From positions 65,741,427-65,805,426 of the forward strand of contig NC_092803.1 of assembly GCF_040954645.1 (NCBI RefSeq): a stretch of 64,000 nt of DNA. The letters run 5' to 3'. Of the stretch, positions 55,113 to 61,830 are shown in pieces. Made by a program: the position numbers and the translations under genes. A model generated the notes under the pieces. The model was not told the DNA's origin and did not search any database. It was given only the letters and a program-made list of their open reading frames with translations. This DNA comes from Diabrotica undecimpunctata (lineage: Eukaryota > Arthropoda > Insecta > Coleoptera > Chrysomelidae). Each line of letters opens with the position of its first letter. Position 1 is the stretch's first letter.

Positions 55113-55116
55113 ATAT
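55113..55116. other. Target site duplication, left
   Basis: ATAT directly before the 5' LTR; the same four bases follow the 3' LTR. Confidence 0.7.
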
Positions 55117-55554
55117 TGTTACGATAATTATCCTGGCCTAAAATAACCGTATTATATTATGACTAATGCTGTTCTGTTTTAGATTATACGAGACCTTTCG
55201 AATAGCTGGCATAAACTCCAAGTAATAAAAAAACTGGTTCCATTCGAATCTTCCGGAATTAGGCCTGTCCATTCGAGGCGAAACCAGGTCAATTGAGGTC
55301 AAAATCCATGGGATTCTAGAGCAGCTGTTTTCGTATAAATATGAGGGAACTTTTATTTTGAAAACAGTTAGTTAATAAAGAAGAGTCGCGCTCGCGATAT
55401 TGTTACGCTCGCCTACTAATAAATTATTGTATATGTAGTGATAAATAAACTTATATAAATTATCGTGCCTTTTAATAAATTAAAGTAGGAACAATATAAT
55501 AAATTAGTAAAGACATTATAAATTAAAGACATAACAATTAATAAATTCACAACA
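55117..55554 (+). repeat. 5' LTR
   Basis: Starts TGTTACGATAATTATCC and ends ATTCACAACA. It contains TATAAAT at 55334-55340 and AATAAA at 55374-55379, so transcription should start at roughly 55365-55375 and the R region should begin there. Confidence 0.95.
55334..55340 (+). promoter_or_regulatory. LTR TATA box
   Basis: TATAAAT, about 30 bp upstream of ACAGTTAGT, a good initiator candidate. The same sequence is in the 3' LTR. Confidence 0.6.
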
Positions 55555-55556
55555 AA

Positions 55557-55574
55557 TGGTGCCAGAAGTGGGAT
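55557..55574 (+). promoter_or_regulatory. Primer-binding site, probably for tRNA-Leu
   Basis: TGGTGCCAGAAGTGGGAT lies two bases after the 5' LTR. From general knowledge of insect tRNA-Leu 3' ends, it is complementary with one mismatch. Confidence 0.6.
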
Positions 55575-55631
55575 CGAACATAAATTAGACTTATAATAAT
55601 AATATAAGTGAATATAAAATAAATTGTGAAA

Positions 55632-58600
55632 ATGGCTACGATTTATGAGCTGACAGTGACTAATTTAAGAAGACATCTTGAAGACAGAGAATTAGCTTCC
55701 ACCGGAAAAAAGGCTGAGTTAGTCCAACGACTAAAGAACGCTTTGCTAGAAGAAGGACTAGATCCAGAGACTTATATATTTGAAGATGCTGTCCTCTCGT
55801 CGATTTCGAAAGTTTCTGGTGACATCGCATCATTAGAGAACAAAGTTTCTGGCGATATTTCGAAAGTTTCCGGCGACATCGCATCATTAGAGAACAAAGT
55901 TTCCGGTGACATCGCATCATTGGAGAACAAAGTTTCTGGCGATATTTCGAAAGTTTCCGGCGACATCGCCTCATTAGAAAACAAAGTTTCTAACGAGATT
56001 TCTTCTCTGGAAAGTAAAGTTTCTGCTAACATCTCTAAAGTAACTTCCGAGATGTCTGCCCTCGACGATAGAATGTTTTCGCTAAAAAACCAAGTTGCTG
56101 CCGATATGTCGGCCTTCGAAGAAAAGATTAAAGAGATGGAAAGGAAGATGGAGGAAACAGGGACAGCAGAGAGAGGAAAGAATCCAATTACAGTGGAGAC
56201 AAAAGAAGAAGAGACGAAATGTAAGTTGGAGACACGGCCGAAATTTGAAGGAAGTGGAGGTTCTATTCATGTTAAAGTCCCAACTTTCGACGGAAAATCA
56301 TCATGGAACAACTACATGAAACAGTTCGAATCAGCCGCAAGAGCAAATGGATGGTCTGAAAAAGAAAAGGCTGTAAACCTGACTATCGCTCTTCGAGGAG
56401 ATGCCTTAGATGTGCTTCAGACCATAGCCGTAGAGGAGACCGATGATTTCGAACAACTGAAGAAGAGGTTAAATATGCGATATGGCCACGAACATTTGGA
56501 GCATGTATATCAGTCACAGCTTAAAAATCGTAGACAGAAGAAAGATGAGGCTCTTCAAGAATATGAGGTAGATATTGCCAGATTAGTACGATATGCTTAT
56601 CCAACAGCCCCCGAAGACATGATGGAAAAATTGGCCGTTCAAACGTTTATTGATGGTCTTCGTGATCATGAAATGCAGAGAACACTACGATTAGCTCGTC
56701 ACAAGACGCTGGTTGATGTCTTATCCGCCGCCCTCGAATACGAGTCAGCTACGCAGGCCTCTGGAGGATACAGTAAAGTTAGGACTGTAAAAGAGGAAGG
56801 AGATGAAGATAAACTTGACCAGCTCGTTAATATGATGAAAATTATTACATGCAAGAAAACGAAGACCATAAAATCAAGAAACTCACCATCAGGAAAACCA
56901 GAACGAGTTGGCTTTAGGGGAGCAGCTTCGACCCGGAACTTTTCCAAAGACCCTCTTATACTAATAGCTTCTTTGAAATGTCGTGAAGATAGTGTATATG
57001 TAGATGGAGAAATAAATGGTAAAAGACATACGTTGTTGGTGGATACCGGAGCGACCAGAACCATTATACGTCCAACAGTTATAAACAGCCGAAAGAAACT
57101 GTTACCAACGAGGTTGCGACTTCGGACCGCTACAGGTGAAAATGCCAACATTCATGGAGAAATCCAGGTACAATTGGGAATTGGAGCAGAAAAGTTTGTC
57201 CATACTGTTATAGTTGCTGACATCGAAGAGGATGTTATATTAGGAATGGACGTAATGAATATGCATGGATTCCAATTGGATTTTAAGAATAAGGTAATCA
57301 AAGTTGGCAACGAGGAGGTATTTCTCCATCCACATAATGACAACACTGTGCAAGCAGCCATTAAAGAAGATACAGTCGTGCCTGCGAGAAGCGAAACGAT
57401 CATAGTAGCGCGGCTACAGGGAATTGTGGACGAAGGGAGACCTGTTATGATGGAGCCTTGGAACCACGACGATGAGGTTGGCCGTGGAATCATAATTGGA
57501 AAGGAATTGGTGACTTCGGCTAAAGAAATTCCTGTGAGACTTATCAATGTCAACGACTACCCAGTGACCATAAAGAAAGAGACAAAAGTAGGAACTTGTG
57601 TACCTGTGACATCCATAATCCGTCAGGCGACAACATCTGATAATTCCAACGACAAATTCGACCAAATGGTTGCAGTTGCAGGACAGTCTCTAAATCAGAT
57701 GGAGAAAAGGAAATTAAGGGAATTTCTGCGGCAGTATCGTGATATTTTCGTACCGAAAGGAGGAAAGACGGGAAGAACTACCGTTGTTAAGCATAAAATT
57801 GATACTGGTAATGCTAAGCCAATTCGTCAAACAGCTCGACGATTACCACAGGCGAAAAGAGAGGAAGCTGAAACGATTGTTCAGGAAATGAAGAAAGACG
57901 GGGTGATAGAACCTTCTACGAGCCCATGGGTCTCTCCGGTGGTCCTGGTTAAGAAGAAAGACGGAACGACGAGGTTCTGTGTGGATTACCGTTTGCTGAA
58001 CAACGTTACCAAGAAAGATAGTTATCCTCTGCCTCGGATCGATGACACATTGGACACATTGGCTGGAAGTAAATTATTTTCTACTTTAGATTTGAAGTCT
58101 GGATACTGGCAGGTAGAAATGGACCCAGTCGATAAAGAAAAGACAGCCTTCACCACAGGATCTGGATTGTGGCAATTCAACGTTATGCCATTTGGACTTT
58201 GTAATGCTCCTGCGACATTTGAGAGGCTTATGGAAAATGTGTTGAGAGGGTTATCTTGGAAAACATGCCTGGTTTATTTAGATGACATAATCGTCTTGGG
58301 GGAGACATTCGAAGATCATTTGAGGAATTTAGAAAACGTTTTTAATCGACTTAAAGCTGCCCAATTGATGCTAAACCCCAAGAAGTGCCAGCTATTTCAA
58401 GGTAAAGTCAATTATCTGGGTCATATAGTCAGTAAAGAAGGAGTGGCCGTGGATAAGGGAAAAATCGATTCCATTAAGGAATGGCCAAAACCAACTGACA
58501 AACATCAAGTGAGAAGTTTTCTTGGACTATGTACTTACTACCGGAGGTTTATTAAGAAGTTTGCAGATATCGCTAAGCCATTAACGCGACTTACAGAGGA

Positions 58601-61130
58601 AGCAAGAGAATACCGCTGGGATATAGACTGCCAAAATGCCTTTGAAACGTTGAAAAAGCATTTAATAACAGCACCAATTTTGGGGTATCCACTGCCAGAA
58701 GGAGAGTTCATCTTAGATACGGATGCAAGTAATGTGGGAATTGGAGGAGTGCTGTCTCAGATTCAAGGAGGACAGGAACGAGTCCTCGGATATTTTAGTA
58801 AAGTTCTTTCAAAACCTGAGCGGAATTATTGCGTCACGAGAAGAGAACTTCTAGCAGTAGTTAAATCAGTAGAGCACTTCTATCAATACATCTATGGCAG
58901 AAAGTTTCTAATCCGAACCGACCATGCCGCCCTTAAGTGGTTGATGCACTTTAAGAATCCAGAGGGTCAGATAGCCAGGTGGATCGAACGACTCCAAGAA
59001 TACGATTTTAAGATTGAGCACCGGGCCGGAGTTAGCCACAGAAACGCTGATTCTCTTTCCAGAAGGCCATGCTCTGCAGAGTGTTCCCACTGCAACAAAA
59101 CGGAATCCAAGGAAGCAGCAGTGCTAAGAACGACGATTGTAAACAACGACTGGACGCCTACTAAGATCAGGGAAGAACAAGGGAGAGATCCAGTTATACA
59201 GAAAATCCGAAAATGGAAAGAGGAAAACCGTCGACCACCTTGGCAGGAAATATCAAACCTATGCTCAGTAGTTAAGACGTATTGGGCCCAGTGGGACTCA
59301 TTTATCATCGAAGATGGCTTGCTCAAACGAGTCCTGGAAAATGATGACGGTTCAGAGAAGAGAAGACAGTTGGTGATCCCAAAGAGCAGAATAGCCGAAG
59401 TACTTCGTCAGTTACACGACAGTCCATCGGGAGGGCATTTTGGTGTAAGGAAAACCCTTCAGCGAATTCGGGAACGGTTTTATTGGATGAACAGTTCCGA
59501 CGACGTAAAAGACTGGTGTAAGAAATGTACTATTTGTGCTACGAGTAACGGGCCTCACCGAAAAAGGAGAGCTCCTATGAGACAATATAATGTTGGAAGC
59601 CCGTTTGAAAGAATAGCTTTGGACATTGCAGGGCCATTTCCAGAAAGTGAAAATGGGGGCAAGTACATGTTGGTAGTAATGGATTACTTCACTAAGTGGG
59701 TCGAGATTTACGCACTTCCAGACCAGAAGGCCGCCACCGTTGCAGATAAGTTGATCCAAGAATATATCAGCCGATTTGGAGTGCCTTTGGAGATCCATAG
59801 TGACCAAGGCAGGAACTTCGAAAGTGATCTATTCCAAGGAATATGTGATAGACTAGGCATGAAGAAAACAAGAACTACCGCGTATCATCCGCAATCGGAT
59901 GGTATGGTAGAACGAATGAATAGGACAGTTGGCAAGTATTTGACAAAGATGGTGTCCGATCATCAGCGAGACTGGGACCAATACCTTCCGTTCTTCACAA
60001 TGGCCTACAGATCTGCTGTTAACGAATCAACAGGCCAGACACCAGCCAAAATCCTATTCGGACGCGAAATGCGACTACCTTGTGATCTCGAGTTTGGATG
60101 TCGACCTGGAGAAGATGTAGCAGGTGAAGATTATGTGATCGAATTACGAAGAAGAATGGACGATGTACATGAGTTAGTCCGTTCCCACCTTCAGATCGCT
60201 AGCGACCGAATGAAGAAACGGTACGATACACAAGCCGAAAAGGGCTGCTTTAAGAAGAACGACAAAGTATGGCTGTATAATCCCAAGAAGCGAAAAGGTT
60301 GTTCTCCCAAATTACAGCAGTTTTGGGAAGGTCCATACCTCATCATGGAGAAGATCAACGATGTCATCTACCGAATAAGCAAGATTCCGAGGGGAAAGCC
60401 GATGATAGTACACCATAACCGGCTGGCGTCTTTCGAAGGTGACCACGACGTAGATGAAGAAGTGGAAGTAAACCAAGTCCAAGACGTGTCTGACCTCACG
60501 TTTGAGGAATTCATGGGTGCCTATGGAGGTACCGGTAAAGCAAGACATGGTGTTACCACTGAAGAAAAGCAAGATCTACTCGCGCTTCCCGATGACTACT
60601 CGCTGGCCCTTACCATCCCGGCCAGTATCAAAGACGCACCAGGGTTGGCATCCGTCTTTCGAAGGAAGTTTGGTCGAGTTGCAGAACTTCAATGCCAGGT
60701 GCCAGCTCCCGGTAAGACCTTGAAACTCCAAGATGCATCACGTTACCTTTTCTACCTGGTAACAAAAGACACTGCCCGTGACCAACCTACCTACCGAGAT
60801 GTGTGGGAAGCCTTACTTCAATTGAGAGAGCACGTACTAGAGTCCGACGTGCAAAAGTTAGCCATGCCAAAGTTGGAGTGCCGCCAATTAGATTGGAGGG
60901 TCATCCGAAATATGGTGGAGGAGATCTTTAAAGACACCGAAGTCCAGGTGTTAGTCTGTTGCAATCCGCATAGTTACTGGTGCGGAGAGAAAACCGTCCC
61001 TTGTCATTTTTATACAACTGGAAGTTGTAAAAGAGGGTCCAGTTGCCGATACCAGCATACAGTTCCGGTTCCAGTCCCGACAAGGTTCCAGGAGGAACCA
61101 TCTTTTAAGAGGGGGGCAATGTTACGATAA
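55632..61130 (+). CDS. Gag-Pol polyprotein with SAP, coiled coil, PR, RT, RNase H, integrase, macro and CCCH domains
   Basis: One frame of 1,832 codons from ATG 55632 (the first ATG after the PBS). Domains in order: SAP-like DNA-binding domain (1-47); coiled coil of 7- and 11-residue repeats of KVSGDI(ASLEN) (about 56-175); Gag (about 213-377); a degraded zinc knuckle (about 403-418, one Cys left); aspartic protease with D471 in VDTGAT; reverse transcriptase with YLDD at 882-885; RNase H with D1029; integrase with HHCC zinc region (about 1261-1308) and D1331, D1391, E1427 (35 residues between the last two); and GPY-type C-terminus to about 1605. Then follow an OARD1/TARG1-like macro domain (about 1650-1777) and a CCCH zinc finger (C1791, C1799, C1805, H1809). 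The stop TAA (61128-61130) lies inside the 3' LTR. All enzymatic motifs of replication look intact. Confidence 0.95.
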   Translation: MATIYELTVTNLRRHLEDRELASTGKKAELVQRLKNALLEEGLDPETYIFEDAVLSSISKVSGDIASLENKVSGDISKVSGDIASLENKVSGDIASLENKVSGDISKVSGDIASLENKVSNEISSLESKVSANISKVTSEMSALDDRMFSLKNQVAADMSAFEEKIKEMERKMEETGTAERGKNPITVETKEEETKCKLETRPKFEGSGGSIHVKVPTFDGKSSWNNYMKQFESAARANGWSEKEKAVNLTIALRGDALDVLQTIAVEETDDFEQLKKRLNMRYGHEHLEHVYQSQLKNRRQKKDEALQEYEVDIARLVRYAYPTAPEDMMEKLAVQTFIDGLRDHEMQRTLRLARHKTLVDVLSAALEYESATQASGGYSKVRTVKEEGDEDKLDQLVNMMKIITCKKTKTIKSRNSPSGKPERVGFRGAASTRNFSKDPLILIASLKCREDSVYVDGEINGKRHTLLVDTGATRTIIRPTVINSRKKLLPTRLRLRTATGENANIHGEIQVQLGIGAEKFVHTVIVADIEEDVILGMDVMNMHGFQLDFKNKVIKVGNEEVFLHPHNDNTVQAAIKEDTVVPARSETIIVARLQGIVDEGRPVMMEPWNHDDEVGRGIIIGKELVTSAKEIPVRLINVNDYPVTIKKETKVGTCVPVTSIIRQATTSDNSNDKFDQMVAVAGQSLNQMEKRKLREFLRQYRDIFVPKGGKTGRTTVVKHKIDTGNAKPIRQTARRLPQAKREEAETIVQEMKKDGVIEPSTSPWVSPVVLVKKKDGTTRFCVDYRLLNNVTKKDSYPLPRIDDTLDTLAGSKLFSTLDLKSGYWQVEMDPVDKEKTAFTTGSGLWQFNVMPFGLCNAPATFERLMENVLRGLSWKTCLVYLDDIIVLGETFEDHLRNLENVFNRLKAAQLMLNPKKCQLFQGKVNYLGHIVSKEGVAVDKGKIDSIKEWPKPTDKHQVRSFLGLCTYYRRFIKKFADIAKPLTRLTEEAREYRWDIDCQNAFETLKKHLITAPILGYPLPEGEFILDTDASNVGIGGVLSQIQGGQERVLGYFSKVLSKPERNYCVTRRELLAVVKSVEHFYQYIYGRKFLIRTDHAALKWLMHFKNPEGQIARWIERLQEYDFKIEHRAGVSHRNADSLSRRPCSAECSHCNKTESKEAAVLRTTIVNNDWTPTKIREEQGRDPVIQKIRKWKEENRRPPWQEISNLCSVVKTYWAQWDSFIIEDGLLKRVLENDDGSEKRRQLVIPKSRIAEVLRQLHDSPSGGHFGVRKTLQRIRERFYWMNSSDDVKDWCKKCTICATSNGPHRKRRAPMRQYNVGSPFERIALDIAGPFPESENGGKYMLVVMDYFTKWVEIYALPDQKAATVADKLIQEYISRFGVPLEIHSDQGRNFESDLFQGICDRLGMKKTRTTAYHPQSDGMVERMNRTVGKYLTKMVSDHQRDWDQYLPFFTMAYRSAVNESTGQTPAKILFGREMRLPCDLEFGCRPGEDVAGEDYVIELRRRMDDVHELVRSHLQIASDRMKKRYDTQAEKGCFKKNDKVWLYNPKKRKGCSPKLQQFWEGPYLIMEKINDVIYRISKIPRGKPMIVHHNRLASFEGDHDVDEEVEVNQVQDVSDLTFEEFMGAYGGTGKARHGVTTEEKQDLLALPDDYSLALTIPASIKDAPGLASVFRRKFGRVAELQCQVPAPGKTLKLQDASRYLFYLVTKDTARDQPTYRDVWEALLQLREHVLESDVQKLAMPKLECRQLDWRVIRNMVEEIFKDTEVQVLVCCNPHSYWCGEKTVPCHFYTTGSCKRGSSCRYQHTVPVPVPTRFQEEPSFKRGAMLR
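60582..60962 (+). other. Macro domain region of the Gag-Pol protein (OARD1/TARG1-like)
   Basis: Residues about 1650-1777. SLAL..ASIKDAPGLASVFRRKFG aligns without gaps with the ADP-ribose-binding block of OARD1 (which has GAGIA..FKKKFG). YLFYLVTKD then matches the block holding its catalytic lysine (here K1712), PTYRDVWEALLQLREH matches the next helix, and AMPKLECRQLDW matches the catalytic-loop block. In that loop the sequence is two residues shorter than in OARD1 and the GCGLD motif is changed to ECR, so the catalytic aspartate is missing or displaced. OARD1 removes ADP-ribose from glutamate on proteins. Binding may survive; hydrolysis is doubtful. Confidence 0.8.
61002..61058 (+). other. 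CCCH zinc finger region of the Gag-Pol protein
   Basis: Residues 1791-1809, CHFYTTGSCKRGSSCRYQH, spaced C-x7-C-x5-C-x3-H, a standard single CCCH finger as found in RNA-binding proteins. It lies just before the protein ends and could take over RNA binding from the lost Gag zinc knuckle. Confidence 0.9.
61108..61119 (+). promoter_or_regulatory. Polypurine tract
   Basis: AAGAGGGGGGCAA just before the 3' LTR, the priming site for plus-strand DNA. It is also coding: the polyprotein frame runs through it. Confidence 0.8.
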
Positions 61131-61560
61131 TTATCCTGGCCTAAAATAACCGTATTATATTATGACTAATGCTGTTCTGTTTTAGATTATACGAGACCTT
61201 TCGAATAGCTGGCATAAACTCCAAGTAATAAAAAAACTGGTTCCATTCGAATCTTCCGGAATTAGGCCTGTCCATTCGAGGCGAAACCAGGTCAATTGAG
61301 GTCAAAATCCATGGGATTCTAGAGCAGCTGTTTTCGTATAAATATGAGGGAACTTTTATTTTGAAAACAGTTAGTTAATAAAGAAGAGTCGCGCTCGCGA
61401 TATTATTGTTACGCTCGCCTACTAATAAATTATTGTATATGTAGTGATAAATAAACTTATATAAATTATCGTGCCTTTTAATAAATTAAAGTAGGAACAA
61501 TATAATAAATTAGTAAAGACATTATAAATTAAAGACATAACAATTAATAAATTCACAACA
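61120..61560 (+). repeat. 3' LTR
   Basis: 441 bp, same as the 5' LTR apart from a 3-bp ATT insertion within GCGATATT(ATT)GTTACGC. Its AATAAA at 61377-61382 should serve as the polyadenylation signal. Confidence 0.95.
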
Positions 61561-61564
61561 ATAT
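61561..61564. other. Target site duplication, right
   Basis: ATAT directly after the 3' LTR, matching 55113-55116. Confidence 0.7.
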
Positions 61565-61600
61565 TAACTATGGGAACTAAACCTGGGAGCATGAGATATA

Positions 61601-61830
61601 TCTACTCGTACAATATTTTCGTCGACTTTAAACAGGCATATGACTCAATAAACACTACACACTTATACAAAACATTAAGTGAATTTAAAATACCATCTAA
61701 ACTAGTTAGGCTCATCCAATTGACAATGACGGAATACTGGTTCAGAAACAGATACAACATGACTCGTTTCAAATAACACAAAGATTAAAACATGGCGATG
61801 GACTGCCACCATTGTTTAATTTAGAAAGTT
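61601..61830 (+). pseudogene. LINE reverse transcriptase fragment (motif A region)
   Basis: Reads NIFVDFKQAYDSINTTHLYK, TLSEFKIPSKLVRLIQLTMT, then after a frameshift KHGDGLPPLFN (motif B). FVDFKQAYDSI is RT motif A. The part up to motif C is missing. Confidence 0.75.

Follow-up and report, generated by a model that had tools for sequence, protein, structure and literature searches.

We analysed a stretch of 64,000 nucleotides from the cucumber beetle Diabrotica undecimpunctata (contig NC_092803.1, positions 65,741,427 to 65,805,426), hereafter called the window, and found that it contains one Ty3/gypsy-type retrotransposon with a pair of long terminal repeats (LTRs), a target-site duplication and a full domain series (Table 1). 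The 5' and 3' LTRs show no mismatch and a single 3-base gap. The profile search gave the domain order protease, reverse transcriptase, RNase H and integrase, and it is by this order alone that the element is assigned to Ty3/gypsy. The initial annotation of this DNA had proposed a gypsy polyprotein ending in a TARG1/OARD1-like macro domain and a CCCH zinc finger, and the LTR pair, the target-site duplication and the domain order agree with the first part of that proposal. The gag-pol stop codon lies 11 bases inside the 3' LTR; therefore, the tail behind the integrase was not inserted but belongs to the reading frame of Pol.

Table 1. Features of the retrotransposon, in window coordinates
Feature	Position	Strand	Basis or remark
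Target-site duplication ATAT, left	55113..55116	.	flank comparison
5' LTR, 438 bp, TGTTACG...CAACA	55117..55554	+	direct repeat
Likely primer-binding site, TGGTGCCAGAAGTGGGATCGAAC, just inside the 5' LTR	55557..55579	+	by eye
gag-pol, single open reading frame (ORF), 1832 aa from first ATG (55632), stop within 3' LTR	55632..61130	+	frame open from 55626 to 61130
SAP domain, Gag N-terminus	55650..55745	+	PF02037, 28.3 bits, cut-off 23.9
Retrotrans_gag (capsid)	56382..56666	+	PF03732
Aspartic protease	57000..57260	+	PF13975
Reverse transcriptase	57948..58430	+	PF00078, 2.5e-39
RNase H	58617..58913	+	PF17919
Integrase zinc-binding and core domains	59376..59891	+	PF17921, PF00665
Integrase p58 C-terminal domain	60330..60428	+	PF22938, 1.8e-13
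Integrase-macro linker, FEEFMGAYGGTGKARHGV...	60429..60548	+	second half recognisable in P0003, P0011, P0012, P0026
TARG1/OARD1-type macro domain	60549..60965	+	fold and sequence comparison
First ligand loop, SIKDAPGLA replacing the TARG1 DCRMGAGIA type	60624..60650	+	
Lys codon aligned with TARG1 Lys84 (kept)	60765..60767	+	alignment
Second ligand loop, PKLECRQLDW, shorter by two residues than the TARG1 PRIGCGLDRLQW type it replaces and without Asp125 equivalent	60867..60896	+	
CCCH zinc finger, C-x7-C-x5-C-x3-H	61002..61058	+	PF00642
3' LTR, 441 bp	61120..61560	+	direct repeat
Target-site duplication ATAT, right	61561..61564	.	flank comparison

Macro domain and CCCH finger behind the integrase

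Structure matches and a tree of macro domains both place the macro fold nearest to TARG1 (OARD1, C6orf130), an ALC1-like macrodomain hydrolase, as the initial annotation had supposed; the macrodomain of the DarG antitoxin, a bacterial toxin-antitoxin partner, is more distant. Unlike TARG1 itself, the domain sits in a retrotransposon polyprotein, is followed by a CCCH finger and, in the family of the window element (family A, below), is without the conserved GCG-L-D loop and the first ligand loop. The Pfam macro profile missed the window copy and was therefore dropped as the sole test for a macro domain. It gave a weak score of 15.6 bits for a second family (family B, below) and 24.1 bits, against a cut-off of 22, for the relative P0012.

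The finger predicted in the initial annotation was recovered as well: it fits the pattern C-x7..9-C-x4..6-C-x3-H, scores above the PF00642 cut-off and is the only CCCH pattern in the ORF (55626-61130). A pattern scan throughout the same ORF found no CCHC zinc knuckle. Among solved structures the finger was closest to CPSF4, a weak match (1.7e-5). The 28 solved-structure hits with E<=1 included no PARP, but so short a finger (19 residues) carries little signal.

Copies, relatives and origin of the tail

The D. undecimpunctata genome (1.74 Gb) was searched with a 209-residue tail query, and the best 150 of 6,059 first-look candidates were all 100% identical to it, in a list ranked by the same similarity that it reports. 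The replaced loop, sought with a degenerate pattern, gave 2,150 matching sites in the genome, and the reversed pattern gave none. Family A is a very abundant element in the cucumber beetle. Of 30 family-A loci retrieved, 26 had a readable LTR end, and the adjoining sequences, compared by eye, all differed. When the loci were compared with one of them (L005), 25 of 29 matched from the first base past the coding end; 24 of these matches ended at 303-325 bases and one at 445. These family-A loci are therefore separate insertions. Directly beside the LTR end, 18 of the 26 loci (L004-L029) have four bases of the form RTAY (11 ATAT, 4 ATAC and 3 GTAT).

In most of the family-A loci (L001-L030) the LTR measures about 310 bp and is unlike the 441-bp LTR of the window, despite the same tail protein. 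The window's LTR was matched at 1e-20 only by L002 and L030, over a long stretch, and by L001 over 132 columns. Different LTRs behind the same tail suggest LTR exchange.

A further 50 loci (L031-L080) were obtained with the queries P0008 and P0012, and 49 of them form family B, in which integrase tail, linker, macro domain and CCCH finger follow one another as in family A and the macro domain is 44% identical to that of family A. Copies of an intact type were also sought among the transposable elements (TEs) of this genome. The query P0012 gave at least 150 rows at 47-49% and P0026 at least 143 rows at 47-49%, with nothing closer among the matches listed; the sequence letters of 30 of the P0012 rows were examined, and all 30 were of B type.

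Relatives of the tail were also found elsewhere. P0003 (1,339 aa) runs from the protease through the CCCH finger with a tail 69% identical to that of the window, and P0011 (60%), P0012 (46%) and P0026 of Gonioctena (45%) carry the linker, the macro domain and the finger. The D. virgifera gene models P0004 (75%), P0005 (84%) and P0010 begin in or cross the linker and look like fragments of these elements, even though the first two bear the name of OARD1-like genes. Tail pieces are contained in the Diabrotica gene models P0004, P0005, P0006 and P0007, which are named OARD1-like or, in the case of P0007, tachykinin-like receptor. 'OARD1-like' gene models of Diabrotica can thus be pieces of a retrotransposon. 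The expectation in the initial annotation that other copies share the tail was therefore borne out, by near-identical copies in the same genome, by a second family and by relatives elsewhere. A chance fusion or an annotation artefact is ruled out by the presence of the tail in many copies and relatives and by the loop-motif sites across the genome.

A tree, which the initial annotation had proposed as the way to the host source, was built from 50 macro domains. The 13 TE-labelled rows formed one side of a branch (97/86, in a midpoint-rooted tree whose bootstrap is not fully settled), and none of 500 label shuffles gave a value as low. One of these rows, P0021 of Nilaparvata, has the macro domain without linker or CCCH finger and is labelled a TE solely by its position in the tree. 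The neighbours of the TE clade were L031 of the same genome (97/79, not starred) and aphid P0041 (99/95), followed by Musca P0031, Glossina P0059 and P0024. The tree fits a single event in which the TARG1 gene of an insect was captured. L031, the nearest non-TE row, retains the Lys and the GCG-L-D loop and may be a host gene; its open frame, at L031:997-3048 (-), codes for 683 aa that include internal repeats and a TARG1 domain matching human TARG1 at 1.4e-36. A scan of a viral contig collection with the C-terminus gave no match.

Loss of pocket residues and purifying selection on the macro domain

Among 27 TARG1-like rows that are not TEs, 40 columns are at least 90% invariant. The window keeps 23 of these, P0003 23, P0011 22, family B 29-30, P0026 32, and P0012 and L031 35 each. 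When the columns were divided into 20 that we take, from the general loop anatomy of macro domains, to form the pocket and 20 others, the window was found to keep 7 of the 20 pocket residues and 16 of the 20 others (Fisher p 0.0095), whereas P0012 keeps 18 and 17, respectively.

In family A the MGAG-type loop has become DAPG, and the GCG-L-D phosphate loop has become ECRQ, which is two residues shorter and has lost the glycines. Among the residues changed in the window are His27, Cys28, Asp32, Met35, Gly116, Gly118, Leu119 and Asp120 (frog OARD1 numbers), and Asp125, which lies within the GCG-L-D loop, is absent. The catalytic Lys (TARG1 Lys84) is present in the window and in 30 of 30 top-scoring family-A loci. 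Family B has Arg in its place in 49 of 49 loci, and its loop reads GHA with Asp or Glu. P0012 and P0026 retain the Lys, the Asp and most of the pocket. Judged by the alignment, families A and B have lost different parts of the pocket, and family A would no longer bind ADP-ribose.

We examined selection on the tail in a sample of family A made up of every fifth of the first 100 motif matches on chromosome C1 (20 loci), a choice that apart from the loop motif is independent of protein identity. Two loci, L090 and L100, lack colinearity with the window and were left out; of the remaining 18 copies, L092 spans only 390 bases. Each distinct variant was counted once against the window, and the motif codons were excluded. 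Macro-domain variants common to at least two copies comprised 1 nonsynonymous (N) and 11 synonymous (S) changes (expected N fraction 0.71, p 1.1e-5), whereas private variants comprised 17 N and 10 S (p 0.24), and the two classes differed (Fisher p 0.0019). Shared variants are those transmitted by active elements and private ones mostly arose after insertion; therefore, the macro domain was constrained during transmission. These results demonstrate purifying selection on the macro domain. In family B the ratio of nonsynonymous to synonymous polymorphism (pN/pS) was 0.25 for the macro domain, 0.45 for the integrase tail and linker and 0.36 for the CCCH part, from 37 stop-free loci of the 49 that had been picked by protein similarity and are hence biased.

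Proposed role of the tail, and neighbouring features

Because the active site is dismantled and the fold is still selected, the macro domain probably now serves a different purpose that needs no enzymatic activity. The reading that we prefer, with a probability of roughly 0.6, is that a captured eraser became a non-catalytic binding tail of the integrase in family A. A Ty3/gypsy lineage would have acquired, at the C-terminal end of its integrase, a macro domain of insect TARG1 type together with a CCCH finger; the macro domain of family A would then have lost its ADP-ribose pocket, with the fold retained by selection. The macro fold would contact a partner from the host or the element without catalysis, and the CCCH finger would contact RNA or DNA. 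A binding module is the simplest account because the core is kept, the ligand pocket is lost and selection persists. The role we favour for it is that of a tether or regulator of the integration complex, since the macro domain sits after the integrase; it would then resemble the chromodomain of chromoviruses. A wider scenario is tentative: one capture would have given a clade of insect Ty3/gypsy elements a TARG1-type eraser and a CCCH finger as a counter-measure to ADP-ribosylation, and families A (by loop loss) and B (by the change of Lys to Arg) would then have become a selected pseudoenzyme serving integration.

Several points weigh against a non-catalytic binding tail. The constraint on the macro domain across species appears weaker than that on the enzymes, because the macro domain has one of the lowest identities to P0003 of any piece (0.69, with 0.70 for the linker, 0.86 for the reverse transcriptase, 0.93 for RNase H and 0.87 for the integrase core). 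The selection sample comes from a single chromosome; within it the CCCH finger had 0 N and 0 S shared variants in 19 codons, and neither the spacer, with 5 N : 0 S, nor the tail, with 4 N : 3 S, shows a sign of constraint. The pocket columns are our own assignment, as noted above. Finally, DarG without the Asp and SCO6735 without either residue of the catalytic dyad are both active, according to PMC9411070, which is why we do no more than infer a loss of activity in family A.

The same two enzymes are an argument for a domain that is still a reader or eraser of ADP-ribose, working by a diverged mechanism against PARP-based defence. According to PMC7050489, viral macro domains counteract antiviral PARPs. 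Family A, moreover, keeps the Lys84 equivalent, and the pocket is largely present in P0012 and P0026. Set against this are the shortened second ligand loop with its lost glycines, the eight changed OARD1 positions in the window and the Arg in every family-B locus, and we regard this alternative as improbable. The initial annotation had put forward just such a reader or eraser. For the window element this is not supported, since a shorter sequence has taken the place of the GCG-L-D loop with its Asp125, and most host-invariant pocket residues are lost. The counter-defence role proposed along with it is possible for an ancestor, P0012 and P0026 keeping most of the pocket; given the pocket loss, counter-defence by ADP-ribose chemistry is not the mode of the window copy, barring a contribution from unknown residues.

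An RNA-binding role of the finger is a serious rival because the ORF is without a CCHC knuckle. The tail would be mainly a packaging device, in which the single CCCH finger does the work of the missing Gag knuckle by binding RNA of the element and the macro domain is a spacer or a dimer interface. The finger is present in family B and in P0003, P0011, P0012 and P0026. It lies, however, at the end of Pol and not at that of Gag, other gypsy elements are also without knuckles, and a mere spacer fails to explain the shared-variant ratio of the macro domain, so that we think packaging unlikely to be the main role. A dead macro domain could also act as a decoy that competes for the host partners of TARG1, whether PARP complexes or nucleolar factors. 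The surface and core are retained while the pocket is lost, and an interaction of TARG1 with PARP1 is described in PMC7050489. An identity of 31-36% to most host TARG1s makes mimicry of an interface doubtful, and we give the decoy little credence. It is hardly conceivable that the domain is a decaying, functionless passenger carried in a young burst. Such a passenger would account for the lost pocket, the near-identical copies and the low identity to P0003; it does not fit the contrast between shared and private variants, or the persistence of frame and fold in lineages whose macro domains are only 44% identical.

LTR elements with a domain captured behind the integrase are already known, and here the captured domain is a macro domain. 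In Ty3/gypsy chromoviruses a chromodomain stands at the C-terminus of the integrase. The non-catalytic tail that we favour shares with it the capture of a chromatin-related domain directly after the integrase and in the same ORF; it differs in its unrelated fold, and the site preference observed in family A is a local one (RTAY, 18 of 26 sites). LTR elements are known to select integration sites through domains captured in this position, and RNA viruses are known to use macro domains against PARPs; the element unites both themes. The top viral structure-model match, Kadipiro virus VP8 (BFVD A0A8E0KJF2, E 2.6e-14, 35% identity), is a TARG1-like macro fold from an invertebrate-associated virus and so recalls the macro domains of insect-borne RNA viruses, but it is a reovirus protein. 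A precedent for macro capture by a reverse-transcribing element is provided by the teleost epsilon-like endogenous retroviruses, which have macro-domain ORFs (PMC4977317, citing Basta et al. 2009). Those are vertebrate retroviruses with the macro domain in additional ORFs, and the available text of that source mentions no CCCH tail. The open-licence literature searched contained no report of a gypsy element with a macro domain, which is weak evidence of absence. The 2,150 motif matches, together with relatives with and without the pocket, permit a direct test of the idea that an eraser, captured for counter-defence, was later repurposed.

Within Gag, the SAP domain at the N-terminus is a DNA-binding motif, which we judge unusual there, and tandem KVSGDI-type repeats follow it (55650-55982), probably as a coiled coil. 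Another integrase-like stretch, at 222-899 and 23% identical to the element's integrase (6e-20), marks a further element in the window. Right after the retrotransposon, at 61600-61740, a stretch resembling a non-LTR reverse transcriptase (IFVDFKQAYDSIN, by eye) was noted, and the element may have inserted beside or into a long interspersed nuclear element (LINE).

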